Assembly (NCBI RefSeq): GCF_040939305.1
Contig: NZ_CP162511.1
Coordinates: 310,001-374,000, forward strand
Reading direction: 5' to 3'
DNA length: 64,000 nucleotides
From: Herbiconiux sp. A18JL235
Lineage (GTDB): Bacteria; Actinomycetota; Actinomycetes; Actinomycetales; Microbacteriaceae
The notes under the pieces were generated by a model. It was not told the origin of the DNA. It did no database searches and saw nothing but the letters and a program-made list of their open reading frames with translations. Position 1 is the stretch's first letter, and each line of letters starts with the position of its first letter. Shown here piece by piece: positions 1 to 45,873 of this stretch. A program made the translations under genes and the position numbers.

Positions 1-474
1 GTCGGTCTCGGAGTCGTTCGCGACGTAGTGCTTCGGGGTGGCGCCCACACCGTTGCGCTGCACCCCCGTGACGTACGCCGCGGCGAGCTCCGAGGTGAGC
101 ACCGGGTCTTCACTGAACGCCTCGAAGTGCCGGCCTCCGAGGGGCGACCGATGCAGGTTGATGGTCGGGCCCAGCACCACGTCGACGCCCTTCCGTCGCG
201 CTTCGATCGCGCACACCGCCCCATAGCGTGCAGCGATCCGGGTGTCCCAGGACGACGACAGCGCGGTCGCCGACGGCAGGTTGATGGAGGGGCTCCGTTC
301 GTCCCAGACCTCGCCGCGCACACCGCTCGGGCCGTCGGAGACCAGGATGCGCCGCAGGCCGATCGAGTCGATCGGCCAGGTGGTCCAGAAATCGCGGCCG
401 GTGAGCAACCGCACCTTGTCTTCCAGCGTGAGCCGGTCGAGGAGCGAGTCGATTCTGTCGTCGGTCGTGGTCAT
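1..474 (-). CDS. GH3 family glycoside hydrolase (beta-glucosidase-like), N-terminal part, cut by window edge
   Basis: Only the first 158 residues lie in the window; the gene continues past base 1. The visible part matches the start of the GH3 (beta/alpha)8 domain: LTLEDKVRLLTG near residue 15, VSDGPSGVR near residue 45, GRHFEAFSEDPVLTSELAAA, and the substrate-binding KHY stretch (ATPKHYVANDSE) near the cut. GH3 enzymes remove non-reducing terminal beta-linked sugars. There is no signal peptide, so it is probably cytoplasmic. I chose ATG at 474 because AAAGG lies six bases upstream; an in-frame ATG at 480 overlaps the stop of the preceding sulfatase as ATGA. It is the last visible gene of the leftward sulfatase operon, which suggests that glycosidic cleavage accompanies desulfation. 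The sugar cannot be told from this part. Confidence 0.85.
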   Translation of the reverse strand, partial: MTTTDDRIDSLLDRLTLEDKVRLLTGRDFWTTWPIDSIGLRRILVSDGPSGVRGEVWDERSPSINLPSATALSSSWDTRIAARYGAVCAIEARRKGVDVVLGPTINLHRSPLGGRHFEAFSEDPVLTSELAAAYVTGVQRNGVGATPKHYVANDSETD

Positions 475-476
475 CC

Positions 477-1844
477 TCATCCTTTCGCGGCGGAGGCGGC
501 CCCACCGGTGTGTGCGTCGTAGAGCTCGAGCAGCGGGTCCGAGGTCTCGGTCATCCACGTCCGGAGGGCGCGGCGGGCCGCAGCGAGGGCCGCCGCGGAA
601 CGGGGGTCGTTCGACAGGTCGTGGAGACCGGCGGGATCGGCACGGAGATCGTAGAGCTCCTCGCGTCGCCGCTTCAGGTAGAAGCCGACGCGCGCGGCGA
701 TGGCCTCGTCGCGGTCCGCGGCCTCGACCATGGCGGGCCAGGTCAAGCCAGCCATGTTCTCCGCCCTGTAGTCGGTCTCGTCGTCGGCCCAACCGTTCCA
801 GATGTAGCCGTGACGAGCATCCTGCACGCACCGCATCTCGTATCGGCCCTTGCCCGCGGTCTCGTGGAAGACGGTGACCACGTGGGTGCGAGCGGGGAGG
901 GAGGGAGAGCCCTGGAGCACCGGGACGAGGCTCTCCCCGTCGATGTCACCTGCTTCGACTCCCGCTGCCTCGCAGAAGGTGGGGAACAGATCGAGCATGG
1001 TGAGAAATCGGTCACCCTCGATGCTGCCCGCCGCGACGACACCGGGCCATCGCACGATGAGTGGGGTGCGGGTCGACTGCAGGTAGCAGTTGGCCTTCGA
1101 GAACGGAAAGGCCATGCCGTTGTCGGAGAGGAAGACGACGAGAGTCGACTCGGCTTCACCCGAGGCCTCCAGTTCGCCGAGCACGGCGCCGACCACGTCG
1201 TCGCAGCGGCGGGCGGAGCTGAGGTACTCGGCGTACTCCTGCCTGACCTCGGGGAGGTCGGGCAGGTAGGCGGGTGGTGTGGCGGCCGGGCCGTCGGGGC
1301 TGAACACCTTCGACGGGCGTGGGATCGCCGCGGCGGCGTCGCCGAACGCACGTCGCTCGTCGTCGGCACCGTGGAAGGGCCGGTGCGGATCATGCGCGTT
1401 GACCATGAGGAACCACGGGCGGCCGTCCGTATTCGCGAGGAAGCGGGCCGTCTCGGCGGCATACCGGCCCGGGTCGCGGCCGAGTCCGAGCTCCCGCATC
1501 TCCACGACGGTGTCCCAGCCGAAACGCTCGACGGGTTGGAGGTGGTTCACCTTGCCGAGGATGCCTGTGACGTACCCCACCTCCGCGAGCTTCTCGGTGA
1601 GCACCGGCACGCCATCGTGGATGGGCTCGAACCCCTCGGCGCCGTTCCGGTGCGGCCACAGACCCGTCATGATCGCCGAGCGGCTGGGTTGGCAGACGGC
1701 GACCGCGACGTGGGCTCGCCCGAAGATCATGCCTTCGGCGGCCAGCATGTCGAGGGCGGGGGTCACGTCGCCCGCGCCTCCGAAGACGCCTGGCGTCGTG
1801 CCCTCCATGTCGTCGGCCGTGATGAAGAGGATGTTGGTGCGCAT
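477..1844 (-). CDS. Type I (FGly) sulfatase, cytoplasmic, heparan N-sulfatase-like
   Basis: A 455-residue sulfatase of the alkaline-phosphatase superfamily. Metal-binding Asp11-Asp12 (ITADD) are near the start, and the maturation motif C51-Q-P-S-R55 is followed by SAIMTG. A second metal site is LSDNGMAF in the middle, and the C-terminal ELYDLRADPAGLHDLSND is typical of the family. Cys51 would be converted to formylglycine by the FGE encoded at 15027-16016. GKVNHLQP and the overall length recall N-sulfoglucosamine sulfohydrolase-like S1 enzymes, but this is a weak substrate hint. The protein starts straight into the first beta strand with no signal peptide, so it should act inside the cell. 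It lies 13 bases after the preceding sulfatase and abuts the GH3 gene, in one operon. Confidence 0.9.
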   Translation of the reverse strand: MRTNILFITADDMEGTTPGVFGGAGDVTPALDMLAAEGMIFGRAHVAVAVCQPSRSAIMTGLWPHRNGAEGFEPIHDGVPVLTEKLAEVGYVTGILGKVNHLQPVERFGWDTVVEMRELGLGRDPGRYAAETARFLANTDGRPWFLMVNAHDPHRPFHGADDERRAFGDAAAAIPRPSKVFSPDGPAATPPAYLPDLPEVRQEYAEYLSSARRCDDVVGAVLGELEASGEAESTLVVFLSDNGMAFPFSKANCYLQSTRTPLIVRWPGVVAAGSIEGDRFLTMLDLFPTFCEAAGVEAGDIDGESLVPVLQGSPSLPARTHVVTVFHETAGKGRYEMRCVQDARHGYIWNGWADDETDYRAENMAGLTWPAMVEAADRDEAIAARVGFYLKRRREELYDLRADPAGLHDLSNDPRSAAALAAARRALRTWMTETSDPLLELYDAHTGGAASAAKG

Positions 1845-1857
1845 CAGCCTGGTCCGA

Positions 1858-3423
1858 TCAGCCGACGGCGCGTCGGGCCGGGATTCCGCGTGCCACGTGG
1901 TCGTCGAGCACGTCCTGCCACGGGATCACGGAGTGCTCGCGTGCCCACTGCTCGTAGACCGCGGCGAGTTCGGCAGCGAGATCCGGCTTCATGGCCGAGA
2001 GGTCGTTCGACTCGATGCGGTCGACGGCGATGTCGTACAGCTCCCACGGGCCGCCCCACTCGCGCACCAGCTTGTACCTGCCTCGGCGCACGGCGGCGTT
2101 GCCGACGTGCTCCCAGCAGACCGTGCGGTCCTGGTCGTCAGACCCGGGAGAACGCCAGGCCTCGAGGAGACTCTCACCCTCGGCGGGGTTCGGAGCCCCG
2201 AGGATGTCCATGACGGTGGGCACGATATCGGTGACGTGGCCGAGGGAATGGCTCACCGATCCACCGGTGGGGATTCCGCCGGCGGGCCACGACGCGATGA
2301 AGGGGGTGGAGATGCCGCCTTCGTGCACCCAGCGCTTCCACATGCGGAAAGGCGTGTTCGAGACGGTCGCCCAATCCTTGCCATAGCTCTGGTACGACGT
2401 GACCGGCCCCGGCATGATCGACGGGTCGTTGCCGAACGGGATGGGACGCCCGTCGAGTGTGGTGGGCGGCGCGGTGAACGGCGGGAAGAACGATTCCCCG
2501 GCCGGGAGCTCCTCGGCGCATCCGCCGTTGTCGGAGAAGAACAGGACGATCGTGTCGTCGGCGACCCCGGTGCTCTCGAGCGCGTCGAGGATGCTGCCGA
2601 CACCGCGGTCGAGCGACTCGACCTGTGCCGCGTAGACCGCCATCCGCTCGATCTGCCACGCCCTGTCCTCCTCGGGCCAGTCGGGAAGCGGCTGCTGTTC
2701 GGGGAGATGGTCGACCGCGGGCAGGATGCCCTCCTGGCGCAGCCGGGTCAGCCGCCGCTCGCGAGTCGTCGTCCACCCCTCCTCGAACCGCGCGCGATAC
2801 TTCGCGATCTCCTCCTCGCGAGCGTGCAGCGGCCAGTGCGGCGCGGTGTAGGTGAGGAAGAGGAAGAACGGCTCCTCCGCCCCGGCATGCCGCCGCACGA
2901 AGTCGGTGCCGCTGGCGGTGATGTCGTCGGTGAAGTAGAAGTCGTCGGGCAGCTCCTCGTCGGGCACCCGGGTCTCGCCCTCGGTGAGGGGCGGCTGGTA
3001 GTAGCTCGACGCGCCGGGCAGGATGCCCCGGAACTCGTCGAAACCCCGTCGGGTGGGCCAGGTGTCGCTCGGAACGGCGAACTCGCTCGCGAGGTGCCAC
3101 TTGCCGAACAGACCGGTGGCGTAGCCGCGGTCGTGGAGCAGCTCGGCGAGCGTGGGCACCTCGGTCGTGAGCGAACCGGCATAGCCGTTCGGGCGATTGT
3201 CGGTGGTGAGCACTCCGATGCCTACCGAATGAGGGTGGTGGCCGGTCAGGAGCGCCGCGCGGGAGGGGCTGCAGCGTGGGGTGACGTAGTAGGAGCTCAT
3301 CCGGATGCCGCGATCGGCGAGCCGCTGCAGCGAGGGAGTGTCGATCTCGCCTCCGAACGGGGCGATGTCGGAGAAGCCGAGGTCGTCGGCCAGGATGATG
3401 ACGATGTTGGGCTTGTGGGCCAC
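1858..3423 (-). CDS. Type I (FGly) arylsulfatase, cytoplasmic
   Basis: A 521-residue arylsulfatase-like protein. It has ILADDLGFSD at the start (metal Asp pair), the maturation motif C51-S-P-S-R55 followed by AALLTG, GKWHLAS (catalytic Lys-His), APHWPLHA, and the second metal site FFSDNGGCAEE. This set resembles the AtsA-type group of S1 sulfatases. The reading frame is open much further upstream, but the protein must start at GTG 3423: AAAGAGA precedes it at good spacing and the family homology begins with the next residues. There is no signal peptide. It sits between the TetR gene and another sulfatase in the leftward operon. Its substrate is unknown; a sulfated sugar is plausible from the neighbouring GH3 gene and importer. 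Confidence 0.92.
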   Translation of the reverse strand: MAHKPNIVIILADDLGFSDIAPFGGEIDTPSLQRLADRGIRMSSYYVTPRCSPSRAALLTGHHPHSVGIGVLTTDNRPNGYAGSLTTEVPTLAELLHDRGYATGLFGKWHLASEFAVPSDTWPTRRGFDEFRGILPGASSYYQPPLTEGETRVPDEELPDDFYFTDDITASGTDFVRRHAGAEEPFFLFLTYTAPHWPLHAREEEIAKYRARFEEGWTTTRERRLTRLRQEGILPAVDHLPEQQPLPDWPEEDRAWQIERMAVYAAQVESLDRGVGSILDALESTGVADDTIVLFFSDNGGCAEELPAGESFFPPFTAPPTTLDGRPIPFGNDPSIMPGPVTSYQSYGKDWATVSNTPFRMWKRWVHEGGISTPFIASWPAGGIPTGGSVSHSLGHVTDIVPTVMDILGAPNPAEGESLLEAWRSPGSDDQDRTVCWEHVGNAAVRRGRYKLVREWGGPWELYDIAVDRIESNDLSAMKPDLAAELAAVYEQWAREHSVIPWQDVLDDHVARGIPARRAVG

Positions 3424-3449
3424 GGGCAGATCTCTTTCGGTGGGGCGGA

Positions 3450-4103
3450 TCAGCGATCCGCGGAGCGGTCGGCCGGGCGATCCAGCAGATACGGCTCGAT
3501 GAATTTCAGGAACAGGTCGAGTTGGCCCGCGCGGTCGAAGGCGCTGGTGTCGAGCACCCACTGGGCGCCGAGGCCGTGCGCGAGGCCGAGCACCCACCTG
3601 GCGATCGTCGTCGAGGTCACCCCGTCAGGGAGTTTCGACTCGTCGACGGTCAGTGACACCATCTCCGTCATCGACACGACGAGGCTCTCGTTACGCCTCG
3701 CGAACCACTCGTGGCCCGGGTGGTCGACGGCGGTGGCCTCGGCGGCCAGGATCACGAACAACTGAACGAGCTCGGGGTTCTGGTCGTTCTCCTTCAGCGT
3801 CTTGATGTACGCCGCGAGAGGGGATTCCCCTTCGGCGATGTACTTCTCGCGCGAGGCGACGTTGCGCGCCTCGCGCTCCTGCAACACGGCCAGGAGAAGG
3901 GCCGCCTTGGTGGGGAAGTAGTGCAAGATCCCCGCCTGGGTGATACCGACCTCACGAGCGATGTCGGCGAGGCTGACGCTGTTGAATCCACCGGCCGAGA
4001 ACAGCGACGTCGACGTGTCGAGGATCTCGCGCCGTCGTGCCTCACCGCGCTTCTGAGTACTGGTCAGAGCGCGGCTGCGCGGAGTACTGGTCTCGGCCGT
4101 CAT
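3450..4103 (-). CDS. TetR family transcriptional regulator
   Basis: A 217-residue regulator with a TetR helix-turn-helix in the first 65 residues (REILDTSTSLFSAGGFNSVS, then LADIAREVGITQAGILHYFP) and a variable ligand-binding C-terminal domain. I chose ATG 4103 because TAGGAG lies seven bases upstream; an alternative ATG at 4136 overlaps the stop of the ABC ATPase as ATGA and would add 11 residues. It lies inside the leftward sulfatase/importer operon, so it is likely to control that operon, perhaps through the inverted repeat at 10662-10697 in the divergent promoter region. The ligand would then be the imported compound or a breakdown product. That link is inference. Confidence 0.9.
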   Translation of the reverse strand: MTAETSTPRSRALTSTQKRGEARRREILDTSTSLFSAGGFNSVSLADIAREVGITQAGILHYFPTKAALLLAVLQEREARNVASREKYIAEGESPLAAYIKTLKENDQNPELVQLFVILAAEATAVDHPGHEWFARRNESLVVSMTEMVSLTVDESKLPDGVTSTTIARWVLGLAHGLGAQWVLDTSAFDRAGQLDLFLKFIEPYLLDRPADRSADR

Positions 4104-4132
4104 CGTGTCTCCTACCCCTGTGATGACCTCGG

Positions 4133-5764
4133 TCATGCGATGGCCTTGTCGAGATCGGGCGTCGCCGCCAGCAATGTCCTCGTGTAAGGATGCTGGGGGT
4201 CGCCGAAGATCTGCTCGGTAGTGCCATGCTCCACGATCTGCCCCTTGAACATGACAGCCACGCGGTGGCTGATCTCCCGCACCACCGCGAGATCGTGGGA
4301 GATGAAGAGGTAGGCGAGGTCGTCAGCCTCCTGGAGTTGGCGAAGCAGGGCGAGGATCTGTTCCTGGATCGACACGTCGAGGGCGGAGACCGGTTCGTCG
4401 AGAATGAGCAGGCGCGGGTCGCTCGCCAGTGCCCGTGCGATCCCGATGCGCTGTCGCTGCCCACCCGAGAACGCCCACGGGTAGCGGTCGAGGTACTCCG
4501 GCCCGAGGCTCACCCGCTCGAGCAGTTCGACGCTCCGGTCGCGCAGATCGCGGCTGGGCACACCGGCAACGCTGAGCGCCTCGGCCAGCGACTGGCCGGC
4601 GGTCCGTCGAGGGTTCAGCGACGAATACGGATCCTGGAACACGTATTGCACGGCGCGGGCGACGCCGCGTCGTTCCTGTCCGGAGATGCCGTGGATCGAC
4701 CTGCCATCGACCTCGATCACCCCTTCGGCCGGCTCGTAGATGCCGACGATCGTTCGTGAGAGCGTCGACTTGCCGCAACCGGATTCGCCGACGAGGGCCA
4801 GCGTCTCCCCGGCGTCGACGTGCAACGACACCCCGTTCACGGCGAAGAACGGCTGGGGCGACCGGAACAAGCTGGTGCGGTGCGTGTTCACGTTCGTCTT
4901 GAGTTCCCGCACCTCCAGCACTCTGGGCCGGTCGACGGGGGCGTCATGACGCAGCGGTGCGTCCATCTTGGGGATGGCGTCCATGAGGCGAACCGTGTAC
5001 GGGTCCTGGGGGCGGGTGAGCACTGACCGTACGTCCCCGCGTTCGACGATCCTTCCGCGGTACATCACCACGACGTCGTCGCACAGCTCGGCGACCACCC
5101 CCATGTCGTGCGTGATGAACAGGATCGCGATGCCGAGCTCGTCACGCAGGTCGCGGAGGAGATCGAGGATCTGCGCTTGGATCGTGACGTCGAGAGCCGT
5201 GGTCGGCTCGTCGGCGATGAGCACCGAGGGGTTGTTGGCCAGCGCGATGGCGATGACCACGCGTTGCCTCATACCGCCGGAGAATTGGTGCGGGAACTTC
5301 GATGCCGCCTCGACCGGGTTCGGGATGCCCACCTTGTCGAGCAGCTCCACCGCGCGTTCGCCGGCCGTCCTGCCGTCCACTCCGTGGATCCGCAAGGCTT
5401 CGACGATCTGGTCCTTGATCCGCATGACGGGGTTGAGTGCCGCCTGAGGGTCCTGGAAGATCATCGCGATCTGCTCGCCGCGCACAGCCAGCATCTCCTT
5501 CTCGGAGAGTTCCGTGAGGTCGCGGCCGCGGAGCTCGATCGCGCCGCCGGTGACCCGACCGGGATGTCGGAGCATCCGCATCACGGCGCGGGAGGTGACC
5601 GACTTGCCCGAACCGGATTCGCCGACGATGCCGAGGATCTGACCGGGCCGGAGGTCGAACGAGACGCCGTCGACGGCGACGACGGGACCGCTCGGCAGAT
5701 CGAAGGTCACGTGCAGGTCGGTCACCCGCAGCAGTGGCTGCGGCGTGGGGTCTGAGCTGGTCAT
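4133..5764 (-). CDS. ABC transporter ATP-binding protein, two fused nucleotide-binding domains (DppD-DppF type)
   Basis: A 543-residue protein holding both ATPase domains of a Dpp/Opp-type importer. The first half has Walker A GESGSGKS, signature FSGGMRQR and Walker B ADEPTTALD; the second has GESGCGKS, FSGGQRQR and LDEPVSALD, each with its own H-loop (ITHDMGV, ISHDLAV). The start at ATG 5764 overlaps the stop of the permease gene as ATGA; open frame further upstream is not part of the gene. In many bacteria these domains are two separate genes; fused versions are common in actinobacteria and rhizobia. It would power uptake through the two permeases encoded just upstream with the lipoprotein at 9087-10622. 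Confidence 0.93.
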   Translation of the reverse strand: MTSSDPTPQPLLRVTDLHVTFDLPSGPVVAVDGVSFDLRPGQILGIVGESGSGKSVTSRAVMRMLRHPGRVTGGAIELRGRDLTELSEKEMLAVRGEQIAMIFQDPQAALNPVMRIKDQIVEALRIHGVDGRTAGERAVELLDKVGIPNPVEAASKFPHQFSGGMRQRVVIAIALANNPSVLIADEPTTALDVTIQAQILDLLRDLRDELGIAILFITHDMGVVAELCDDVVVMYRGRIVERGDVRSVLTRPQDPYTVRLMDAIPKMDAPLRHDAPVDRPRVLEVRELKTNVNTHRTSLFRSPQPFFAVNGVSLHVDAGETLALVGESGCGKSTLSRTIVGIYEPAEGVIEVDGRSIHGISGQERRGVARAVQYVFQDPYSSLNPRRTAGQSLAEALSVAGVPSRDLRDRSVELLERVSLGPEYLDRYPWAFSGGQRQRIGIARALASDPRLLILDEPVSALDVSIQEQILALLRQLQEADDLAYLFISHDLAVVREISHRVAVMFKGQIVEHGTTEQIFGDPQHPYTRTLLAATPDLDKAIA

Positions 5765-6675
5765 TTGCGGATCACCGTTTCGTTGAGCGCGTCGGAGAGG
5801 AGGCTGAACGACATCGACAGCAGGATGAGCACGAGCGTCGGGCCGAGGATGTACATCGGCGATTGCTCGATGAAGCGGATGCCGACGTTCAGTAGCGAGC
5901 CGAGCGACGGCTCCGGCGGCTGGATGCCGAGGCCGATGATGCTGAGGCCCGCCTCGATGAAGACCGCCACGACAACGAAGATCGCGCCTCCGACGAGGAT
6001 CGGGTCGACGGCGTTGGGCAGGATGTGGCGCACCAGGATGGTGCCCTTGCCGACTCCGAGGGTGCGGGCTGCGGTCACGTACTCCCGTTGCATCTGCTCC
6101 ATGAGTGCGGCCCGCGCCTGCCGGCCGAAGGACGGCAGGCCGCTGATGGTGATCGCCACGACGAGCGCAGCCCATCCGGGACCCATGATGAGCACGATGC
6201 AGACGCCGAGCACCACACCGGGGAATCCGAGGATGATGTCGAGCACGCGCTGCACCACGGTACCGGCGATCCTGGACAGCGCGCCGAGCAGCCCGAGCGC
6301 GGTACCGATGATCATGCTGAGCGGCACGGCCACCAGGATGATGGAGAAGTCGGTGCGGAGTCCGTAGATCGTCCTGACCAGGAGGTCGCGGCCGAGTTCG
6401 TCGGTACCGAACGGGTGCGCGAGGCTCGGGGTGAGGAAGGCGTCGCGGGTCTGCTGGTCGTATCCGCCTGGGAACAGGATCGGGGCCGAGACGGCTAACA
6501 GCACCAGCACGATCAGGATCGCCGCGCCGATGATGCCGCGCGGGGTTCTGAAGGCTGACAGATAGCGCTGAAGGGTCGCTCCGGGCGTCAACCGCCGCTG
6601 ACGGGTCTGCTGGAGGTTCACCGCTTCTGTACGAGGCGGGCTCGGCACGCGGGAGGATTTGCGCTCCATGCTCAT
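5761..6675 (-). CDS. ABC transporter permease, DppC/OppC family
   Basis: A 304-residue inner-membrane permease. A cytoplasmic N-terminal segment of about 45 residues precedes a first membrane helix (GIIGAAILIVLVLLAVSAPIL), then HPFGTDELGRDLL, the hallmark of DppC-type subunits. The core follows with its ATPase-contact loop (EYVTAARTLGVGKGTILVRHILPN) and further helices. It pairs with the DppB-type permease whose stop lies one base upstream, and its own stop overlaps the ATPase start. An internal ATG at 6669 is a possible alternative start. The cluster context points to import of a sulfated compound or oligosaccharide rather than peptides; family-5 systems are known to carry either peptides or oligosaccharides. 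Confidence 0.93.
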   Translation of the reverse strand: MSMERKSSRVPSPPRTEAVNLQQTRQRRLTPGATLQRYLSAFRTPRGIIGAAILIVLVLLAVSAPILFPGGYDQQTRDAFLTPSLAHPFGTDELGRDLLVRTIYGLRTDFSIILVAVPLSMIIGTALGLLGALSRIAGTVVQRVLDIILGFPGVVLGVCIVLIMGPGWAALVVAITISGLPSFGRQARAALMEQMQREYVTAARTLGVGKGTILVRHILPNAVDPILVGGAIFVVVAVFIEAGLSIIGLGIQPPEPSLGSLLNVGIRFIEQSPMYILGPTLVLILLSMSFSLLSDALNETVIRK

Positions 6676-6676
6676 C

Positions 6677-7624
6677 TCAGGCGTCCAATCTGACTCGGGG
6701 GTCGAGGGCGGCGAGGATCATCTCCGTGATCAGCTGAGCGAACACGGCGATGAGTACGGCTCCCATGATGAGGATCTGCACGAGCTGGTAGTCGCGCGAG
6801 TTGACAGCTTGAACGGCGAGTTGGCCGAGTCCGTTGCGGGCGAAGATCGCCTCGATGATGATGGCACCGCCGAAGAGCTCGCCGACCCTGATGCCGATGG
6901 CCACCACCGCCGCGCCGAGGCTCGTGCGAAGCACGTGGCGGAAGGTGATGCGTCGGGGTGACGCCCCTTTCGCCCTGGCGAGATCGACGAACTCCTCGCC
7001 CCTGGTGGTGCGCATCGTGGTCTGCAGGAGGCGCGCGACGGACGGGGCCTGGGACAGGCCAAGGGCGAGCGCCGGGAGCAGGAGGTATTGGATTCCGATC
7101 TCCGGGTTCTCCGTGAGCGGCACTTCACCGCTCACCGGCAGGATGCGCCAGGTGACACCGAAGAGCACGATGAGCAGCAGCCCTGCCAGGAAGGCGGGGG
7201 TGGCCAGCAGCAGCGTGTTCGTCGTGTCGACGGCGAAGCGGGCGATCTTCGATTGCGCCGACCCGCCGAGGATGCCGAGCGTGAAGCCGATGACGACGAG
7301 GAAGACCGCAGCGAGGAGCGCGAGCTCGATCGTGCTCTCCAGCCTCGTCCCGATCAGGTCGGCGACCGATCGGTTGAAGATGAACGACTCCCCGAGATTG
7401 CCTCGGAACACTCCGCCGAGCCACGTGAGGTACTGCACGACGAGCGGCTGGTCGAGGCCGAGGGACGCTCTGATCGCCTCCACCTGATCGGGTGACGCAT
7501 CCGAACCGGCGATGGTCTGGGCCGGGTCGCCGGGGGCGAACCGGGGAAGGAGGAACGCGATGATCGACGTCGCGAAGAGCACGAGGAGGATCGAGGGCAG
7601 CTTTCGCAGGAGGAACCTGAGCAT
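6677..7624 (-). CDS. ABC transporter permease, DppB/OppB family
   Basis: A 315-residue permease. It begins MLRFLLRKLPSILLVLFATS, a first membrane helix followed by PRFAPGDPAQTI, the usual DppB N-terminal arrangement. The EAA loop is EEFVDLARAKGASPRRITFRH, then IEAIFARNGLGQLAVQAVNSRDY near the C-terminus. The start at ATG 7624 shares one base with the stop of the upstream sulfatase (TGATG), so the two are probably translationally coupled. It forms the membrane channel with the DppC-type subunit encoded next. An importer permease coupled directly to a sulfatase is the strongest local evidence that this transporter brings in a sulfatase substrate. Confidence 0.93.
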   Translation of the reverse strand: MLRFLLRKLPSILLVLFATSIIAFLLPRFAPGDPAQTIAGSDASPDQVEAIRASLGLDQPLVVQYLTWLGGVFRGNLGESFIFNRSVADLIGTRLESTIELALLAAVFLVVIGFTLGILGGSAQSKIARFAVDTTNTLLLATPAFLAGLLLIVLFGVTWRILPVSGEVPLTENPEIGIQYLLLPALALGLSQAPSVARLLQTTMRTTRGEEFVDLARAKGASPRRITFRHVLRTSLGAAVVAIGIRVGELFGGAIIIEAIFARNGLGQLAVQAVNSRDYQLVQILIMGAVLIAVFAQLITEMILAALDPRVRLDA

Positions 7625-9003
7625 CAGTCGCCGCCCTCCCCATCGATCAAGGCGTGCAGTCGTGCCGCCACCTCGGGTTGCTCCCCTGACGCGTCCCGTT
7701 CTTCGAAGGGATCGGCGGCGAGGTCGACGAGATAAGGCCGCGGGAGGTCGGGGCTCGTGACCAGCTTGTGGGTGGCCGTGGTCAGCGCCCGCCACTCCCG
7801 GAGCCGAACCCAGGCGTTCGAGCCGTAGTGCCGCGCAGCCATCTCGATCTCGCGCTCTGAGCGGTCGAGGCCGGAGAGGGTCCATTCGCGGTGGGAGTCG
7901 GTGCTGCCGTCGAGCACACCGAGCACCGATCTCGCGGTCATCGGCGCCGGTACCTCGACGCCGGCGGTGTCGAGGATGGTCGCGGCGATGTCTTCGAGGG
8001 AGACGAGTGCGTCGCTGGTGGTGCCCTTCGCGCGCACCACGGGGCCGCTCACCACGAGCGGTATCCGGATGCTCGGATCGAGCGCGATCTGCTTGCCCCA
8101 GGTGCCGTGGTCACCGAGCATCTCACCGTGGTCGCTGGTGTAGATGATGACCGTGTTCTCCAGCTCGCCCTCAGCCGCGAGACGATCGATGAACGACCCG
8201 AGGTGGCGGTCGATGTTCTCGATCATCGCCGCGTACCGGCGCCGCACGTCGTCGTGGTCGCCATCGAACTCGCCGGGCGCGTGTGGGGGTGGGAACGAGA
8301 CGTCGGCCCAGTCGTCGAGCATGCGGTCGGTCACGTCCATCGGGTCGTGCGGACCGGCGAAGTTGACGACGAGGTGCCACGGTGAATCGGAGGGGCGGCG
8401 ATCGAGCATGGTATGGGCGTTGGCGGCGATCCAGTTGTCGAGATACGACTCCTCGGGGAGCGGGCTGGGCTCGACGTCGCTGTACGGTGCGTCCTTCCGT
8501 CGGTCGAAGTCCGCCCGGTGCGCGTCGGCGAGACCTGCTTCGTACAGGTGGTTCATGTAGGGGCCGTGCGGTCGGCCGTCGCGGGTCGACCAGAGCGAGT
8601 CGAACTTTCCCTCATTGTCGATGCCGTCCGACATCCCCCACTCGCCGAGCAGCCGGGAACCGTCGAGGTTCCAATCGAAGGTCGCCTTGTGCAGGTCGAA
8701 CTTCCCCACGCCCGCCACGAAGTACCCGCCCTCGTCGCGCAAGGTGCGGTAGTAGGTGGTGCTCTCGACGGGAAGGTCGTGGAAGTTGTTCGGAACAGGA
8801 GCCGAGGTGTAGTCGAGGCCGGTCGCGAGGCACGCACGTGCCGGCGCACACAACGGTGAGGGTGTCGTCGCTCGGCGGAAGGTCACGCCCGATTCCTGCA
8901 GGCGCTTGATGTGGGGAGTCCGAACGGGCAGGCCGGGCGCGCCCTCCAGCCAGTCGTAGCGGTGCTGATCGGCGATCACCAGCAGCACGTTGGGGGTGCT
9001 CAT
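7624..9003 (-). CDS. Type I (FGly) sulfatase, CxPAR type, choline-sulfatase-like, cytoplasmic
   Basis: A 459-residue sulfatase starting at ATG 9003, with GGAAGGA six bases upstream. The first metal site is VIADQHRYD, Asp-Gln rather than Asp-Asp, as in choline-sulfatase-like enzymes. The maturation motif is C52-A-P-A-R56 followed by ACLATG. Later motifs are GVGKFDLH, NFAGPHDPMDV and the metal site YTSDHGEMLGDHGTWGK. Its C-terminal YLVDLAADPFEERD is a normal ending for the family. There is no signal peptide. It lies directly between the substrate-binding protein and the permeases in the operon, so it probably acts on the imported compound first. The Ala in CxPAR is accepted by FGE-type maturases. 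Confidence 0.9.
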   Translation of the reverse strand: MSTPNVLLVIADQHRYDWLEGAPGLPVRTPHIKRLQESGVTFRRATTPSPLCAPARACLATGLDYTSAPVPNNFHDLPVESTTYYRTLRDEGGYFVAGVGKFDLHKATFDWNLDGSRLLGEWGMSDGIDNEGKFDSLWSTRDGRPHGPYMNHLYEAGLADAHRADFDRRKDAPYSDVEPSPLPEESYLDNWIAANAHTMLDRRPSDSPWHLVVNFAGPHDPMDVTDRMLDDWADVSFPPPHAPGEFDGDHDDVRRRYAAMIENIDRHLGSFIDRLAAEGELENTVIIYTSDHGEMLGDHGTWGKQIALDPSIRIPLVVSGPVVRAKGTTSDALVSLEDIAATILDTAGVEVPAPMTARSVLGVLDGSTDSHREWTLSGLDRSEREIEMAARHYGSNAWVRLREWRALTTATHKLVTSPDLPRPYLVDLAADPFEERDASGEQPEVAARLHALIDGEGGD

Positions 9004-9054
9004 GTCGGTCCTTCCGAAGGCGCGAGGTGCGGTGGCTCGCGAACGATGGGGTGG

Positions 9055-9080
9055 GGAGGGCGCCCTCTCGAGCGCCCTCC
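9055..9080 (-). terminator. Hairpin between binding-protein gene and downstream sulfatase
   Basis: A perfect 9-base-pair stem (GGAGGGCGC at 9055-9063, GCGCCCTCC at 9072-9080) with an 8-base loop lies just after the stop of the substrate-binding lipoprotein gene. No T-run follows, so full termination is not expected. Such a hairpin commonly stabilises the upstream mRNA or partly attenuates transcription, giving more binding protein than permease. That role is inferred from position. Confidence 0.6.
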
Positions 9081-9086
9081 GGTGGA

Positions 9087-10622
9087 TCACTGGGTGACGA
9101 ACGCCTTCGAGGCGTCGAGGTAGGCCCGGGTGCTCCAGGACAGATCCTGGGCGTCGTCGGCCTGGACGAACTGGCCGTCGACCCGCACGACATTGGTGGA
9201 GAACGCCTGCTCGAGCATGTACTCCGTGAGTGCGTGCAGGGCGTCGCCGTAACCGGCCTCGTCTGCGGCAAGAAGGTCGTTCCGGAGCTGCTCGTACTCA
9301 GGGGTCCAGAACTTGGAGGGATTCCCCTTGCGGAGCGAGGGCAGAGTGTTCATGAGAGTGATGGGCGCGAGACCGTTCAGGCCGTGCAGCGGCATGAAGA
9401 CCTGTCCGAGTTCACCGGCGATCTGGTTCTGGCCGAAGGTCTGTGTGTCGACGGCGTTGATGGTCGGGTTCAAACCCACTTCTTCGAGATTGTTGCGCAC
9501 GATCTCCGCAACGCTGGCGTTCGCTGGAATGCTGATGACGTTGATCGTCACGGCTGCGCCCGTCGCTCCCGCTTCCTCGAGAAGCTCCTTGGCCTTGTCG
9601 GGGTCGTAGCTGTAGAAGTCGTCGAGATCGGACGGATAGTCGGTGGAGGTCTCGTCCCAGAAGACATCGGTGGGAGTGGCTGCATCGCCGAAGACCTGCG
9701 ACGCGATGCGGTCCCGGTCGATCGCGTAGTTGAGCGCCTGGCGAGCCTCGACCTTGTCGAACGGCGCCTGGCTGACGTCGATTCCCAAGGGGTAGACGCT
9801 GCCGGAGGTGTTCACGATGGTGTATCCGCTGCTCGCGCCGATCGAGTTCACGTCTTGCGGGTTCATGCCGATGGCTACGGAGGAGCGACCACTTCTCACG
9901 GCATTCAGCATGGCGGTGCTGTCGGTGATGACGGCGACGTCGATCCCGTCGAGCAGGGGCTCGTCGCCCCAGTAGCCGTCGTAGCGATCGAGCTTCAACT
10001 CCGATCCCGGAGTCCAGCTGGTGAACGTGAACGGCCCGGTGCCGACCACTTGGGATCCGTCGGCAAGGCCCGCCGCGGTCTCCTGGTCGAGGATGAACGT
10101 CTGTTCGAAGAAGTCGAATAGGTTCGGGATCGGTGCGGAGAAGGTGATGGTCAGCTCGGTCGGGCTGGTCACCTCGATCCCTGAGAACATCTTCGCGATG
10201 TAGGAGGTCTGCGAGCTGGATTCGGCCGCCGTCTCGAAGGAGTACTTCACGTCGTCTGCGGTCATCTGCCGCCCGGTCTGGAAGGTCACGTCGTCGCGAA
10301 GTGTGATGTCGATGGAGAGTCCGTCGTCGGCGACCTTCCACTCCTTCGCCAACAGCGGCTGGGGATCGCCGTCGGCGTCGAGGAGTGTGAGCGTCTCGAA
10401 GACGTTCGCTGCCCAGGAGAAATTGCCGAGGCGGCCGGACTGGACGTTGTTGGGCTGCGCATCGGAGCTCTGCGCGATGGTCAGCCTTCCGCCGGCGACC
10501 GGGGTCGAGGAGGCCTCTGCGGCGGAGTTGACTGCCGACTGGCAGCCGGTGAGCGTCAAGGCTAGGGCGGCGGCGCCGGCGGTGACGCCGGTGAGCAACC
10601 TGAATCTGCGGGACTTCAACAT
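9087..10622 (-). CDS. ABC transporter substrate-binding lipoprotein, family 5 (DppA/OppA-like)
   Basis: A 511-residue lipoprotein. A basic start and hydrophobic stretch lead to the lipobox LTG-C27, so it would be anchored outside the membrane. The mature part has the family-5 pattern: GGRLTIAQSSDAQ at the start, LAKEWKVADDGLSIDITLRDDVTFQTGRQMTADDVKYSFE near residue 110, VVGTGPFTFTSWTPGSELKLDRYDGYWG near 200, and ARQALNYAIDRDRIASQVFG near 300. It is the first gene of the leftward operon and would capture the substrate for the DppB/DppC/ATPase genes downstream. Family 5 includes peptide, nickel and oligosaccharide binders; the sulfatase context favours a sulfated carbohydrate or small sulfate ester. 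Confidence 0.93.
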   Translation of the reverse strand: MLKSRRFRLLTGVTAGAAALALTLTGCQSAVNSAAEASSTPVAGGRLTIAQSSDAQPNNVQSGRLGNFSWAANVFETLTLLDADGDPQPLLAKEWKVADDGLSIDITLRDDVTFQTGRQMTADDVKYSFETAAESSSQTSYIAKMFSGIEVTSPTELTITFSAPIPNLFDFFEQTFILDQETAAGLADGSQVVGTGPFTFTSWTPGSELKLDRYDGYWGDEPLLDGIDVAVITDSTAMLNAVRSGRSSVAIGMNPQDVNSIGASSGYTIVNTSGSVYPLGIDVSQAPFDKVEARQALNYAIDRDRIASQVFGDAATPTDVFWDETSTDYPSDLDDFYSYDPDKAKELLEEAGATGAAVTINVISIPANASVAEIVRNNLEEVGLNPTINAVDTQTFGQNQIAGELGQVFMPLHGLNGLAPITLMNTLPSLRKGNPSKFWTPEYEQLRNDLLAADEAGYGDALHALTEYMLEQAFSTNVVRVDGQFVQADDAQDLSWSTRAYLDASKAFVTQ

Positions 10623-10661
10623 CGTTGTTGTTCACTCCTCATCGGTGAGAGATTGGTGCTG

Positions 10662-10697
10662 TTGCAAAAACCTAGTGAGTAGATAGTAGGTTTGCAA
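10662..10697. promoter_or_regulatory. Divergent promoter region with imperfect inverted repeat (candidate operator)
   Basis: The 103-base gap between the two divergent sulfatase operons contains TTGCAAAAACCTA at 10662-10674 and its near-mirror TAGGTTTGCAA at 10687-10697. The arms match except for two extra A bases, and the spacer is AT-rich (gtgagtagatag). The position between divergent starts suits a shared operator, plausibly for the TetR protein encoded at 3450-4103. I could not assign -35 and -10 boxes with confidence. Confidence 0.55.
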
Positions 10698-10725
10698 GTG
10701 CAGATTTCGCGAGGAGGCGATGAAG

Positions 10726-12159
10726 ATGACCGAGGGTCGACCCAATGTGCTCTGGATCATGGCTGACGAGCTGCGGGCAGACGCCCTCTCGTGCTACGGG
10801 AATGCGCACCCCGAGGTACGCACCCCGAACATGGACGCGCTCGCCGCATCCGGTGTGCTGTTCGAGCGCGCGTTCGCGTCGTCGCCCGTCTGCGTGCCTG
10901 CTCGTCAGGCGATGCTCTCGGGGGTCAGTCCGCTCATCAGCGGGGTGGTCAACAACGAGGGGTACACGCCGGCCGGATTCGAGCCTCCCGAGATGTTCCC
11001 CGAGATCTTCGCCGCGGCCGGCTGGTCGACGGCCAGCTACGGCAAAGAGCACCTCCCGGGGGGACGGTCGCCCTGGCAGCTCGACGACCACACCGGTTCG
11101 GGAATGCCGGAGTTGCTCGCAGTCGCCCGCGCTCACGGAGTGCCGATGCGGCGCTCGCCCGGTATCGGGCACGTCTATGACGCGGTGCTCCCCGCAGGGG
11201 CCGCTACGGGCTCCGAGGTGATCACCGAATCGGTGATCACGGCCCTGGCTGCGAGCGAGTCGCCCTTCCTGCTCCGCGCCAGCTACGTGCAGCCCCACAA
11301 GCCGATGGTCGTGCCGGAGCCGTGGGCGAGTCGGTACGAGGGGGTCGAGTTCGACGTGCCACGCGACCCCGACGCCGCGCAGAACGAGTTCGAGCGGGAG
11401 TGGGGCAGGCTCACCAGAGGAGCCGAGCTCAGCGACGACGAGCTCCAGCTGTCGTTCCAGCGCTACCACGGCTGCGTCGCCTGGCTCGACGATCAGGTCG
11501 GGCGCATCCTCGAGGCGCTCGACCTGGCTGGGCTGCGGGAGTCGACGATCGTGGTGCTCGGCACCGACCACGGTGCTTCGCTCGGTGAGCACGGCATCCT
11601 CGCCAAGCACACCTTCGCGCCGGAGAGTCATCGTGTGCCGCTCATCATCTCCTGGCCGGGTACTCTGCCGGCCGGGCAGCGACGCGGCGACCTCGCCGTG
11701 AGCGAGGATCTCGCGACGACCGTGCTGGGGCTTGCCGGGCTGCCCCGCGCGTCGACGATGACGGGCCGTGATCTCTTCGCCGACCCTGCCCCCGACACGG
11801 TGCTGTCGGTCATCGGGTACGGAGAGCCGTCGAGCCGGGCCTTCCCCAATCGCGACGAGGGCGGCTGGCGAGACGGACGCGGCTGGCCCCAGCGAGTCTG
11901 CGCCCGCACCGTGCGCTACCGCTTCGACGCAACGACTCGAAGGGCGGGGGAGCCGGTCAGCGTCGACGAAGCCGGGGCCTTTCTCGCCGACACGGTCCTC
12001 GATCCGAACGAGCGGGTGAACCGCATCCACGACCCGTCCTACTCCGACGTGGCGGAGGCCCTCGCAGAGACGGTCTCCACCGCGGCCGCGCGCCTTCCCG
12101 TCGGAGTCGTCGACGCCGACGATTTCGACCGCACCCGAGGCCGCACCGGCGCCGTCTGA
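10726..12159 (+). CDS. Type I (FGly) sulfatase, CxPAR type, cytoplasmic
   Basis: A 477-residue sulfatase and first gene of the rightward operon. I chose ATG 10726 because AGGAGG lies eight bases upstream; an ATG at 10720 is too close to that site. The first metal site is IMADELRAD (Asp-Glu), and the maturation motif is C56-V-P-A-R60 followed by QAMLSG. Then come YGKEHLPG (catalytic Lys-His in a modified GKEH form), YVQPHKPM, and the metal site GTDHGASLGEHGILAKH. The C-terminus is atypical: a region about a new-line-of-sequence extension (GAFLADTVLDPNERVNRIHD) replaces the usual YDLxxDP stretch. There is no signal peptide. The substrate is unknown. Confidence 0.9.
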   Translation: MTEGRPNVLWIMADELRADALSCYGNAHPEVRTPNMDALAASGVLFERAFASSPVCVPARQAMLSGVSPLISGVVNNEGYTPAGFEPPEMFPEIFAAAGWSTASYGKEHLPGGRSPWQLDDHTGSGMPELLAVARAHGVPMRRSPGIGHVYDAVLPAGAATGSEVITESVITALAASESPFLLRASYVQPHKPMVVPEPWASRYEGVEFDVPRDPDAAQNEFEREWGRLTRGAELSDDELQLSFQRYHGCVAWLDDQVGRILEALDLAGLRESTIVVLGTDHGASLGEHGILAKHTFAPESHRVPLIISWPGTLPAGQRRGDLAVSEDLATTVLGLAGLPRASTMTGRDLFADPAPDTVLSVIGYGEPSSRAFPNRDEGGWRDGRGWPQRVCARTVRYRFDATTRRAGEPVSVDEAGAFLADTVLDPNERVNRIHDPSYSDVAEALAETVSTAAARLPVGVVDADDFDRTRGRTGAV

Positions 12160-12204
12160 GCGTCGCGCCCACCACCATCCGCATCACCATCGAAGGAGAA
12201 CAAG

Positions 12205-13701
12205 GTGACCGACTCACCGAGACGCCCCAACATCGTCTTCGTCCTCACCGACGACCATGCAGCGCATTCCATCGGCGCCTACGGCTCGGTCGTCAACGAG
12301 ACCCCGCACATCGATGCCATCGCCGACGCCGGGGTGAGGCTCGACAACTGCTTCGTGACCAACTCGCTCTGCTCGCCCAGCCGCGCGTCCATCCTCACCG
12401 GCACCTACAGCCACGTGAACGGAGTCACCACGCTCTGGACGCCCATCGACGCCTCCCAGCCCACCTTCATCTCGCAGTTGAAGGCCGCCGGGTACCGCAC
12501 CGGCATCGTGGGCAAGTGGCACATGGGAGAGGAGGAGCTGTCCAACCCGAAGAACTTCGACTACTGGGACGTGCTGATCAATCAGGGGGAGTACCTCGAC
12601 CCGCGTTTCCTGTCGCCCGACGGGGTGCGCCATGAGCCCGGCTACGCGACCGACGTCATCACCGATCTCGCGTTGCGCTGGGTGGAGAGCCTCGACGGCG
12701 ACGAGCCGTGGTGCCTGTTGATCTGGCACAAGGCGCCCCATCGTCCGTGGGAGCCCGACGAGAAGCACAAAGACATGTACTCAGACCCGATCCCGGTGCC
12801 GGGCACGTTCTGGGACGACATGAGTACCCGCTCGGCGTCGGCCCGCCGTGCTCTCATGTCGATCGCCGACTACATCAACAGCGAGGACCTGAAGGTCGAC
12901 CCGCCCGAGGGCCTCAGCTACGAGGAGCTCGCGCTCTGGAAATACCAGCGCTACATGGAGGACTACCTCCGCTGCGTCGCCTCCGTCGACGACAACGTCG
13001 GCCGGGTCACCGACTGGCTGCGCGAGCGTGGTGACCTCGAGGACACCGTCATGATGTACTCCTCCGACCAGGGCTTCTTCCTCGGCGATCACGGTTGGTT
13101 CGACAAGCGCTTCATGTACGAGGAGTCGCTGCGGATGCCTCTCGTGATGAGCTATCCGCGTGCCATCCCGGCTGGTACGGTGCACGACGGCATCGTCACG
13201 AACGTCGACTTCGCCCGGACCATCCTCGACGCTGCGGGAGTGGAGCCGCACGAGCGGATGCAGGGGAGGAGCTTCTGGGGAGACCTCGTCGGCCGGCCGT
13301 CGAGCCCGCCCGCCGAAGGCATGTACTACCGGTACTGGGAGAACGACGACTGGTTCCACAAGGCGCCGGCTCACTACGGCTACCGCGACAGCCGGTACAA
13401 GCTGATCTACTACTACAACACCGGGTACGGGCTGCCGGGCAGTGGATTCTTCGAATACCCGGCCGAGTGGGAGCTGTTCGACCTGGAGGTCGATCCGCAC
13501 GAACTGAAGAATGTCTACGACGACCCCGCCTACGCCGAGATCCGCGACGGCCTCAAAGAACGAATGCTTGAGGCGCAGGCGGCAGTGGGTGACGAGCCTT
13601 GGGATGGCAGGCAGCCCGATGCGGATGAGCGGGCCTCCGTGATCGCACGGTTCACCGAGTCGCCCGGCATGAACCCGGTCGTGCCCACCGGCCCGCGATG
13701 A
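12205..13701 (+). CDS. Type I (FGly) sulfatase, CSPSR type, GlcNAc-6-sulfatase/iduronate-sulfatase-like, cytoplasmic
   Basis: A 498-residue sulfatase from GTG 12205, with GAAGGAGA about six bases upstream. It shows VLTDDHAAHSIGAYG at the start, the maturation motif C56-S-P-S-R60 followed by ASILTG, GIVGKWHMG, HKAPHRPWEP, and the metal site YSSDQGFFLGDHGWFDKRFMYEE. The C-terminus ELFDLEVDPHELKNVYDDP is standard. This pattern is closest to the S1 group that includes N-acetylglucosamine-6-sulfatases and many polysaccharide sulfatases; the specific bond is not predictable here. It lacks a signal peptide. Its stop overlaps the next sulfatase start as ATGA, so the two are translationally coupled. 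Confidence 0.92.
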   Translation: MTDSPRRPNIVFVLTDDHAAHSIGAYGSVVNETPHIDAIADAGVRLDNCFVTNSLCSPSRASILTGTYSHVNGVTTLWTPIDASQPTFISQLKAAGYRTGIVGKWHMGEEELSNPKNFDYWDVLINQGEYLDPRFLSPDGVRHEPGYATDVITDLALRWVESLDGDEPWCLLIWHKAPHRPWEPDEKHKDMYSDPIPVPGTFWDDMSTRSASARRALMSIADYINSEDLKVDPPEGLSYEELALWKYQRYMEDYLRCVASVDDNVGRVTDWLRERGDLEDTVMMYSSDQGFFLGDHGWFDKRFMYEESLRMPLVMSYPRAIPAGTVHDGIVTNVDFARTILDAAGVEPHERMQGRSFWGDLVGRPSSPPAEGMYYRYWENDDWFHKAPAHYGYRDSRYKLIYYYNTGYGLPGSGFFEYPAEWELFDLEVDPHELKNVYDDPAYAEIRDGLKERMLEAQAAVGDEPWDGRQPDADERASVIARFTESPGMNPVVPTGPR

Positions 13702-14957
13702 ACGGCGACCCCGGTGCGCGCAGGCCGAACATCCTCTGGATCTCCACGCACGACATCAACCCCGACCTCGGCGCCTATGCAGGGGTCTGGCCGGGCGCTG
13801 ATGCCGCGCGCACGCCGAACCTCGACAGACTGGCAGCGGAGGGGGTGCGATTCGACCAGGCGTTCGCGACGACGCCGGTGTGCGCCCCATCGAGGTCGGC
13901 GCTCATGACCGGCTGCCACCCGATCTCCATCGGCACTCACAACATGCGCACCAAAGCGGTGCCGCCGCCCGAGGTCAGATTGCTCTCGGAGTACTTCCGT
14001 ATGGCGGGCTACTACGCCACCAACAACTGGTTCACCGATCTGCAGGTGCATCTCCCCGGAACGGCTTTCGACGAGTGCTCCGACACGGCGCACTGGCGCG
14101 GCCGGCCCGACGTGGAGACGCCGTTCTTCGCGGTCTTCCACGGGATGGCGACGCACGAGGCGCAGCTCTACCTGGCCGACGCGGAGTTCGACCGCATCAC
14201 CGCCGGCCTGCCGGAAGCGCATCGGCACGACCCGGCGTCGGTACCCGTTCCTCCCTACCATCTCGACACTCCGGAGTTCAGGAAGGCGTGGGCGCGGTAT
14301 CACGATCTCGTGTCGGTGATGGATGCGTGGGCGGGCGGGTTGCTCCGGCAGCTCGACGACGACGGACTCGCCGACGACACCATCGTCGTCTTCTGGTCAG
14401 ACCACGGAGCCGGCTTGCCCCGCATGAAACGCGCTGCCACCGAAGCGGGGCTGCGAGTGCCGATGATCGTGAGGTGGCCGGCACGCCTGGCCGGGGGTCA
14501 GGTGCGCACCGACGTCGTGCATCTCGCCGACCTCGGCCCCACCATGCTCACGCTGGCCGGACTGCCCGTGCCCGAGCACGTCCAGTTCTCACCGTTGTTC
14601 GATGGAGAGGGCCGACCGGTCGAGCAGGGAGAGTACGCCTTCGGCGGTCGTGATCGCATGGACGAGCAGCAGGACAGCTCGCGCACGGTGCGCGATGAGC
14701 GGTACCGCCTCATCCGGCACCGCCACCCAGACCGTTCGCCGCTGCAGTATCAGCACTTCGCCGACCGCTTCCCGACCTGGCGCGCTCTCAGAACGGCAGT
14801 CAACGGCGAGGCGCGTCAACGCGCTGCCGGGCTCGTTCCTGATGTGATGACCCCTGTGCAGCGGCGGGCCACCGGTCCAGGGAAACCCGAGCTCGAGCAT
14901 ACCCGAGGGAACGACCATCTGGGTGCGGGCGTGGCGGCTCGGAATCACCCCCAGTGA
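13698..14957 (+). CDS. Type I (FGly) sulfatase, CAPSR type, SGSH-like, with atypical short C-terminus
   Basis: A 419-residue sulfatase starting in the ATGA overlap with the preceding gene. Motifs are ISTHDINPDLG (a single metal Asp in the first site), C62-A-P-S-R66 followed by SALMTG, THNMRT, and the metal site FWSDHGAGLPRMKR. The THD and HNMR elements resemble heparan N-sulfatase-like enzymes. After LQYQHFADRFPTWRALRTAV the protein ends in about 35 residues without the ELYDLxxDP segment expected there, and neither alternative frame restores it, so a recent simple frameshift is not evident. It has no signal peptide and precedes the FGE gene by 69 bases. Confidence 0.88.
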   Translation: MNGDPGARRPNILWISTHDINPDLGAYAGVWPGADAARTPNLDRLAAEGVRFDQAFATTPVCAPSRSALMTGCHPISIGTHNMRTKAVPPPEVRLLSEYFRMAGYYATNNWFTDLQVHLPGTAFDECSDTAHWRGRPDVETPFFAVFHGMATHEAQLYLADAEFDRITAGLPEAHRHDPASVPVPPYHLDTPEFRKAWARYHDLVSVMDAWAGGLLRQLDDDGLADDTIVVFWSDHGAGLPRMKRAATEAGLRVPMIVRWPARLAGGQVRTDVVHLADLGPTMLTLAGLPVPEHVQFSPLFDGEGRPVEQGEYAFGGRDRMDEQQDSSRTVRDERYRLIRHRHPDRSPLQYQHFADRFPTWRALRTAVNGEARQRAAGLVPDVMTPVQRRATGPGKPELEHTRGNDHLGAGVAARNHPQ

Positions 14958-17962: not shown

Positions 17963-18029
17963 GGCGAGGGATGCCGCGGCCCGGCGGCGGGGCGCGCGCG
18001 AGCGGGGGGTTCTGAGCGATAGTAAGAGC

Positions 18030-43760: not shown

Positions 43761-43783
43761 CTAGTCCTCCTGAGCATGCCTTC

Positions 43784-43798
43784 AGTGTGTCACACACT
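43784..43798. promoter_or_regulatory. Perfect palindrome upstream of the GntR gene (candidate operator)
   Basis: AGTGTGT-C-ACACACT is a perfect 7+1+7 inverted repeat about 25 bases before the GntR start, in the divergent control region. FadR-type GntR proteins bind short palindromes of this size, so autoregulation here is plausible. The assignment rests on position and symmetry only. Confidence 0.55.
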
Positions 43799-43861
43799 TG
43801 TATGCCTTGTCGATCGTTCGGTTGCGGCGTTCACCACTTTGTTGGGTGATTTCGGATTAAC

Positions 43862-43890: not shown

Positions 43891-43944
43891 TCCTTGGAGA
43901 TCTACTTGACTGTCAGGTGGACGACGAATCCGACGGGGGATTGA

Positions 43945-45120: not shown

Positions 45121-45129
45121 GGAATCACG

Positions 45130-45840: not shown

Positions 45841-45873
45841 CGCTTCCAACAAAACCCACGAGAAAGGTTCGAT

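Follow-up and report, generated by a model that had tools for sequence, protein, structure and literature searches.

A sulfatase island with a Dpp-type importer in Herbiconiux sp. A18JL235: a probable import-first system for organosulfate utilisation

Uptake of a sulfate ester before its desulfation inside the cell is known from Pseudomonas, where the AtsRBC importer and a single arylsulfatase provide sulfur in this manner. Sulfate esters and sulfonates are described as major components of soil organic sulfur (PMC4267179), and in the actinobacterium Bifidobacterium breve UCC2003, which grows on a sulfated sugar, sulfatase clusters serve the use of N-acetylglucosamine-6-sulfate (GlcNAc-6-sulfate) through an intracellular sulfatase (PMC7326374). 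In the heparan loci of Bacteroides thetaiotaomicron and Pedobacter heparinus, S1_11 sulfatases (in P. heparinus also S1_8) cooperate on small products (PMC10154612), while in the excerpted text of a proteome study on Rhodococcus growing with dibenzothiophene, sulfatases are named and a dedicated ester importer is not (PMC8557817). The current work concerns an island of Herbiconiux sp. A18JL235 (Microbacteriaceae) in which six sulfatase genes, a gene for a formylglycine-generating enzyme (FGE) and an ATP-binding cassette (ABC) importer of the Dpp type with a family-5 binding protein form two tight divergent gene runs. The island lies in a window of 64,000 nucleotides (bases 310001-374000 of contig 1, NZ_CP162511.1), to which the coordinates below refer, in a genome of 4.3 Mb that is 99.99% complete. 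We consider it probable that the island as a whole is an import-first organosulfate utilisation system.

The island would share with Pseudomonas AtsRBC the order of import before desulfation, and differs from it in the type of ABC importer and in the number of sulfatases. With E. coli DppABCDF it shares subunit make-up and fold, whereas Asp436, a ligand-contact residue of DppA, is lost from the window protein. The maturase of B. breve is of the anaerobic type. A system of this kind is known in outline from B. breve and Pseudomonas; the novelty appears to lie in a clade of family-5 importers tied to sulfatases, together with its expansion to an island of seven sulfatases, and no importer-sulfatase family of this type was found among the titles and opening lines of abstracts in the open-access literature. 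B. breve is likewise an actinobacterium with an intracellular sulfatase; its known substrate is a sulfated monosaccharide (PMC7326374), whereas here six to seven sulfatases accompany a Dpp-type family-5 importer and an FGE. The set of sulfatase, TauD and ROK regulator of R. qingshengii IGTS8 recurs in the Streptomycetaceae copies of the importer-sulfatase module, whereas the excerpted text of the IGTS8 study names no ester importer beside AtsA1 (PMC8557817), and the island carries TetR and IclR regulators in a genome in which no TauD was found. The heparan loci, finally, employ periplasmic sulfatases after lyases and GH88 (PMC10154612), in contrast to the island, whose sulfatases are not exported and in whose genome GH88 was not found.

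The minus-strand operon comprises, in order of transcription, the family-5 solute-binding lipoprotein (9087..10622), sulfatase S3 (7624..9003), a DppB-type permease (6677..7624), a DppC-type permease (5761..6675), a fused DppD-DppF type ATPase with two ABC domains (4133..5764), a TetR-family regulator (3450..4136), the sulfatases S2 (1858..3423) and S1 (477..1844), and a GH3 family glycosidase. The permeases and the ATPase were assigned by domain and annotation models, the lipoprotein by its SBP_bac_5 domain and its position in a sulfatase-linked clade, and the GH3 enzyme by the Pfam domain Glyco_hydro_3 on the 5' part within the window (1..474); the gene begins 2 nt beyond the S1 stop and runs past the window edge to position 307976 of contig 1, giving 832 amino acids from the start used. 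On the plus strand, S4 (10720..12159), S5 (12205..13701) and S6 (13698..14957) are followed by FGE (15027..16016), and upstream of the window lie an IclR regulator, a seventh sulfatase (S7, AtsA-like) and a major facilitator superfamily (MFS) permease preceding it. The frames overlap at TGATG (S3 stop and DppB start), at ATGA (DppC/ATPase, ATPase/TetR and S5/S6) and at GTGA (binding protein and a longer form of S3 from an alternative start at 9090). A preliminary description, made from the letters alone, had listed the six sulfatases and the importer and had missed FGE, GH3, TetR, S7, the MFS permease and an inverted repeat in the promoter region. Its statement that a sulfatase stands between binding protein and permeases holds for position and not for fusion, the frames merely overlapping (TGATG, GTGA). 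Regarding starts, 3423 (GTG) is likely for S2 and 9003 (ATG, or GTG at 9090) for S3, and the fourth reading frame opens at 10720, the formerly given 10726 being the next ATG.

The sulfatase domain PF00884 is found well above cut-off in all six open reading frames, S4 included, and a PF00884 search of the genome returned seven sulfatases (S6 as two matches), all within ~19 kb, a tightness that none of 200,000 random draws of seven points attained. The formylglycine motifs read, in coordinate order, CQPSR, CSPSR, CAPAR, CVPAR, CSPSR and CAPSR, so that all six are Cys-type and fall into the previously described groups, four with CxPSR and two with CxPAR; their pairwise identity of 21-37% over the aligned parts agrees with the previous view that they differ considerably. 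S7 is likewise a PF00884 protein with a C-x-P-x-R motif, and is 49% identical to S2. The maturase that formylglycine sulfatases require is encoded in the island itself, the FGE at 15027-16016 being the only one retrieved by a PF03781 search of the genome. Over most of its length it best matches, among solved structures, 6muj (1.6e-123) and also 2q17, both of which we take to be the Streptomyces coelicolor FGE, and it retains both residues of an aligned C-x4-C pair, presumably the active-site cysteines.

Export of the sulfatases was assessed by a hydropathy test of our own (not SignalP) applied to all in-frame starts that lie no more than 150 residues ahead of the catalytic fold. No signal-peptide-like stretch was found for any in-frame start of S1-S7 (0/7), and no Tat motif was flagged in the six window sulfatases over the same range of starts, while a closely related test recognised a signal in all of the 26 binding proteins that served as controls. 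The six sulfatases therefore lack export signals by both checks, as the preliminary description had stated, and the signals that define an exported polysaccharide-utilisation locus are missing from all seven. This lack, formerly taken as a special feature, is no surprise because signal-free Cys-type sulfatases are the rule in the host's family: by the closely related test a possible signal was seen in 0 of 56 such proteins from 40 family loci (hand-picked from a match list, skipping loci already fetched and the window genome, and hence not random). Further baselines were 0/6 in the genus, 0/23 beside related importers and 1/30 in a best-match set.

The evidence that ties importer to sulfatase comes from a scan in which an alignment of four binding proteins was compared with 84,980 species genomes; the best 80 loci were kept and six loci from further genomes were added. 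After removal of 20 loci with a flank shorter than 7 kb and no sulfatase seen, 66 of the 86 were testable, and a Cys-type sulfatase was present within 7 kb in 20 of 21 loci scoring at least 200 bits, in 2 of 7 at 150-200 bits and in 2 of 38 at 100-150 bits (20/21 versus 4/45 below 200 bits, Fisher 5e-12 with relatedness ignored). Two features of the sample favour linkage: five short-flank loci bearing a sulfatase were retained (L029, L222, L032, L045 and L059), and the same-genus genomes G009 and G013 (L029, L222) had originally been found through their sulfatases. A recount without the five gives 16/17, 1/6 and 2/38, respectively. One of the two linked loci at 100-150 bits is the Streptomyces locus L109, whose binding protein is in two pieces and was omitted from the tree; the locus (L109:10001-17571, Streptomyces sp. 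WAC08241) has the look of frameshifted DNA, since fragmented matches also occur for several genes next to the binding protein.

A maximum-likelihood tree was built quickly from 85 rows and gave long-branch warnings for rows beyond the clade concerned. The window binding protein falls within a clade of 21 rows (SH-aLRT 99) that further contains genomes of the window's order (G009, G013, G023, G088, G469), seven Nocardiaceae and eight Streptomycetaceae; this place among Actinomycetota agrees with the composition of the host genome. All 20 testable rows of this clade are sulfatase-linked, the contig of L038 being too short for a test. Three Chloroflexota rows, Jiangella and G404 extend it to a wider clade of 26, which comprises 23 linked, 2 unlinked and 1 untestable. 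The sulfatase lies upstream and divergent in 7/7 Nocardiaceae loci, and downstream on the same strand in the seven Streptomycetaceae loci with intact matches, with FGE between in four; Streptomyces L041, L042, L046 and L048 show a single same-strand run of binding protein, DppB, DppC, DppD, DppF, FGE and AtsA. The remaining loci have yet other arrangements, so that the link is conserved despite a changing layout. The partner sulfatase is nearest S2 or S7 in all sulfatase-bearing loci of the clade except L033, where it is nearest S3.

The window binding protein has the SBP_bac_5 domain above cut-off and the family-5 fold. Two residues of DppA, R383 and D436 (precursor numbering), are those changed in entry 8z1z, and we take them to contact the peptide. 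At the position of D436 the window protein has N, and across all 19 clade rows that were aligned the residue is A, G, V or N, a loss which, as far as an alignment can tell, speaks against a DppA-like receptor and does not prove one for sulfate esters. Three residues before this position, H413 of the window protein is kept in 18 of the 19 rows.

The previously proposed sequence of family-5 uptake and cytosolic desulfation is strengthened by the conserved transporter-sulfatase link, the co-encoded maturase and the loss of the DppA contact Asp in the clade, and we regard this step alone as very probable. The importer would bind a small extracellular sulfate ester and carry it intact across the membrane, the FGE would convert the active-site Cys of the sulfatases to formylglycine in the cytosol, the sulfatases would then strip the sulfate groups, and the GH3 enzyme would cleave the desulfated glycoside afterwards. 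The ligand, the activities and working order of the individual sulfatases, and the service to sulfur or to carbon supply are put forward here as proposals. A glycan as the substrate we rate at about even chances.

Both operons share a 97-base spacer, the divergent promoter region (10623..10719), which is nearly identical in G009 and contains an inverted repeat, TTGCAAAAACCTA...TAGGTTTGCAA (10662..10697), as a possible operator. The repeat is identical in G009 and is the sole occurrence of its pattern in the 4.3 Mb genome, a genome-wide pattern search having found no second site, while a promoter and terminator scan gave no excess over shuffled sequence. Judged from this arrangement, the TetR protein is the likely binder of the repeat, and from one operator between the divergent operons it would switch importer, sulfatases and maturase together; we infer a single switch for import, desulfation and maturation.

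Comparison within the genus separates a core from its additions. G009 has the same gene order from FGE to S1, on two short contigs and with 81-97% protein identity, its contig ending before the GH3 position. G013 has a minimal module of binding protein, DppB, DppC, DppDF, TetR and an S2-like (AtsA-like) sulfatase with a divergent FGE; TetR is thus kept in both genomes. The island exceeds G013 by S3, which stands between the genes for the binding protein and DppB, by S1 and GH3, which follow S2, and by S4-S6, which separate the promoter region from FGE; most other module copies are small. The core uptake module would accordingly comprise binding protein, permeases, ATPase, TetR, AtsA-like sulfatase and FGE, and in this lineage it may have been enlarged with sulfatases nearest to carbohydrate enzymes, making several sulfate positions or related esters usable; a loss of the extra genes in G013 would be the alternative.

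The identity of the added enzymes bears on a narrower form of the proposal, to which we give somewhat less than an even chance, namely that oligosaccharides which other organisms release outside the cell are imported, desulfated sequentially and finished by the GH3 encoded in the operon. Among solved structures, S5 is closest to 5g2v (BT4656, a GlcNAc-6-sulfatase; 1.3e-112), in agreement with the earlier GlcNAc-6-sulfatase-like label for the frame at 12205 as far as similarity goes. The DKR and two His residues of 5g2v are kept in the alignment, and these aligned residues of S5 may correspond to the S1_11 recognition triad. Such a triad of His, Asp and Arg is described for S1_11 GlcNAc-6-O-sulfatases (PMC10154612). 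For S6 the best solved match is the S1_8A sulfatase 9bb9 (9.8e-50), an entry that may stem from a study on lambda-carrageenan, and for S1 it is SGSH (2.8e-43). Genomic context points the same way: G469 (locus L116, from another family) carries S7-like, S5-like (69%) and S6-like (41%) sulfatases around the importer, and G082 (L217-L218), whose family-5 binding proteins are more remote, carries among them S5-like (72%), two S6-like (61%), GH3 (60%) and FGE (69%) genes, so that the S5, S6, GH3 and FGE types recur together. In G404 (L117), two PL8 polysaccharide lyases (L117:7167-9644 and 17767-19866) flank importer and sulfatase. For one lineage at least, this suggests polysaccharides, and makes a lyase-import-desulfate system possible there.

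One point against such an oligosaccharide route is the identity of S1. An Arg (Arg282) replacing the Lys of O-sulfatases is a feature of the heparan N-sulfatase SGSH (PMC4014121), whereas in the alignment S1 and its G009 ortholog lack Arg282 and have the O-sulfatase Lys in its place; the earlier SGSH-like label for the frame at 477 thus holds by similarity only. An N-sulfatase reading of S1 was rejected on account of this Lys. S1, S3 and S4 are moreover too far from solved enzymes for a substrate to be named, S3 and S4 matching many sulfatases at lower scores. No GH88 gene was found in this genome by a search whose control gave a signal, and none for PL8 by one whose control was silent, so that absence of PL8 is not established; a heparan or chondroitin pathway, which was also considered, is unsupported on the same searches. 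None of the six sulfatases passes the choline-sulfatase model TIGR03417 (best 153.6 bits against a cut-off of 433.45), and the corresponding earlier label was abandoned.

The other narrower form, possible although well short of an even chance, is sulfur scavenging only: small aryl or alkyl sulfate esters would be imported, sulfate would be the key product, the carbon part would be of secondary importance, and the extra sulfatases would serve to broaden the choice of esters and not to take one glycan to pieces. An AtsA-like sulfatase is what usually accompanies the importer, and an MFS permease precedes the AtsA-like S7. S2, the sulfatase of the conserved module type, yielded a structural model of moderate quality (pLDDT 71.7), which matches 7all and the P. 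aeruginosa arylsulfatase (31% identity) as nearest folds. Of 20 clade loci, 9 contain a TauD gene, namely that of R. rhodnii and each of the eight from Streptomycetaceae for which flanks were searched, as opposed to 0 of 67 other loci searched; ROK regulators occur at 10 loci inside the clade and at 2 outside it; a further neighbour scan covered 59 genes in 12 named loci (58 of the 80 listed, and one of L037), genes opposite the module being omitted by eye. In the IGTS8 proteome, a set of AtsA1, TauD and ROK is described as appearing when dibenzothiophene replaces sulfate as the sulfur source (PMC8557817), and together with the TauD and ROK neighbours it is a pointer to organosulfur scavenging as a basic role of the module. 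The Streptomyces context is not directly transferable to the island, because TauD was found in none of the Nocardia and Aldersonia loci searched, in none of the loci nearest the window and not in this genome. The GH3 gene in the operon, the similarity of S5 to a GlcNAc-6-sulfatase and the negative TauD search of the genome fit carbohydrate use better, and scavenging would not obviously need seven enzymes. That an ordinary peptide importer came to lie among sulfatase genes by chance is very improbable, since the annotation models, in which dipeptide, nickel and oligopeptide systems come closest to the transporter, and fold matches that include DppA, are outweighed by a linkage of 20/21 versus 4/45 across different arrangements, by the embedding of S3 with overlapping codons and by the absent contact Asp.

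Several observations weigh against the import-first organosulfate system favoured here. Among the fold matches listed for the model of the binding protein, receptors for sugar-opines, peptides, nickel and sialic acid fit it about as well as one another; the position of R383 is a gap in all aligned proteins except DppA, GsiB included, and is weak evidence because every other aligned protein is gapped there; the contacts of DppA are missing likewise from GsiB and from more remote members of family 5; and an Asp does occupy the D436 position in G404, which falls outside the 21-row clade. The Jiangella locus L050 (202 bits) has the transporter and no sulfatase within 9 kb on either side, the inverted repeat at 10662-10697 was not seen in G013 although that genome has a TetR of its own, and of 40 loci from the family (L177-L216), 9 have cytosolic sulfatases within ~6 kb of a sugar importer of the MalF/G type. 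The negative searches for GH88, for PL8 (control silent) and, in the lineages named, for TauD are to be added. A search for the ligand of the binding protein by fold was given up, as it did not discriminate among the families listed. Relatives of the upstream MFS permease are within ~6 kb of sulfatases in 3 of the same 40 loci, and import-first use of sulfate esters through other transporter types may be common in the family.

The conserved pairing defines a concrete candidate family of sulfate-ester importers across several actinobacterial families, including genes of the well-studied Streptomyces and Nocardia; should the assignment be correct, their labels as dipeptide or nickel transporters would be wrong. 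The fuller proposal, that a whole clade of so-called peptide importers imports sulfate esters and has here grown into a wholly intracellular pathway, in which a multiply sulfated glycoside enters intact and loses its sulfates in succession to as many as seven dedicated sulfatases, is tentative, and we are rather inclined to doubt it.

S6 reads NNWFTD where its L116 relative reads NNPKTD, and NNWFTD also occurs in the G009 ortholog and in two G082 relatives. S6 and these three relatives thus have Phe in place of Lys as found in L116. This NNxKTD region lies close to the active site, and from the alignment the activity of S6 may be altered or served by another residue. In four family genomes (L217-L221), a sulfatase 71-72% identical to S5 adjoins a family-5 importer of a more remote kind, with GH3, a nucleoside-hydrolase-like gene, rhamnosidase and GH42 as neighbours in varying combinations. 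The first PL8 lyase of G404 has a Tat-like RRHFL start, as judged by eye.

Elsewhere in the window, positions 38650-56000 form a second sugar locus with weaker codon bias, which contains genes for a dehydrogenase, a trehalase-like protein, a GntR-FCD regulator, a mandelate-racemase-like protein, a PIG-L deacetylase, a family-1 sugar-type binding protein and a rhamnosidase-like enzyme (51484-53853), as well as two large proteins (48947-51487 and 53850-56000) with no Pfam match at the threshold used. A GH130-like gene is located at 61570-62712 and another at L032:832-3009, and two GH130-like genes lie near the importer-sulfatase module of G023.

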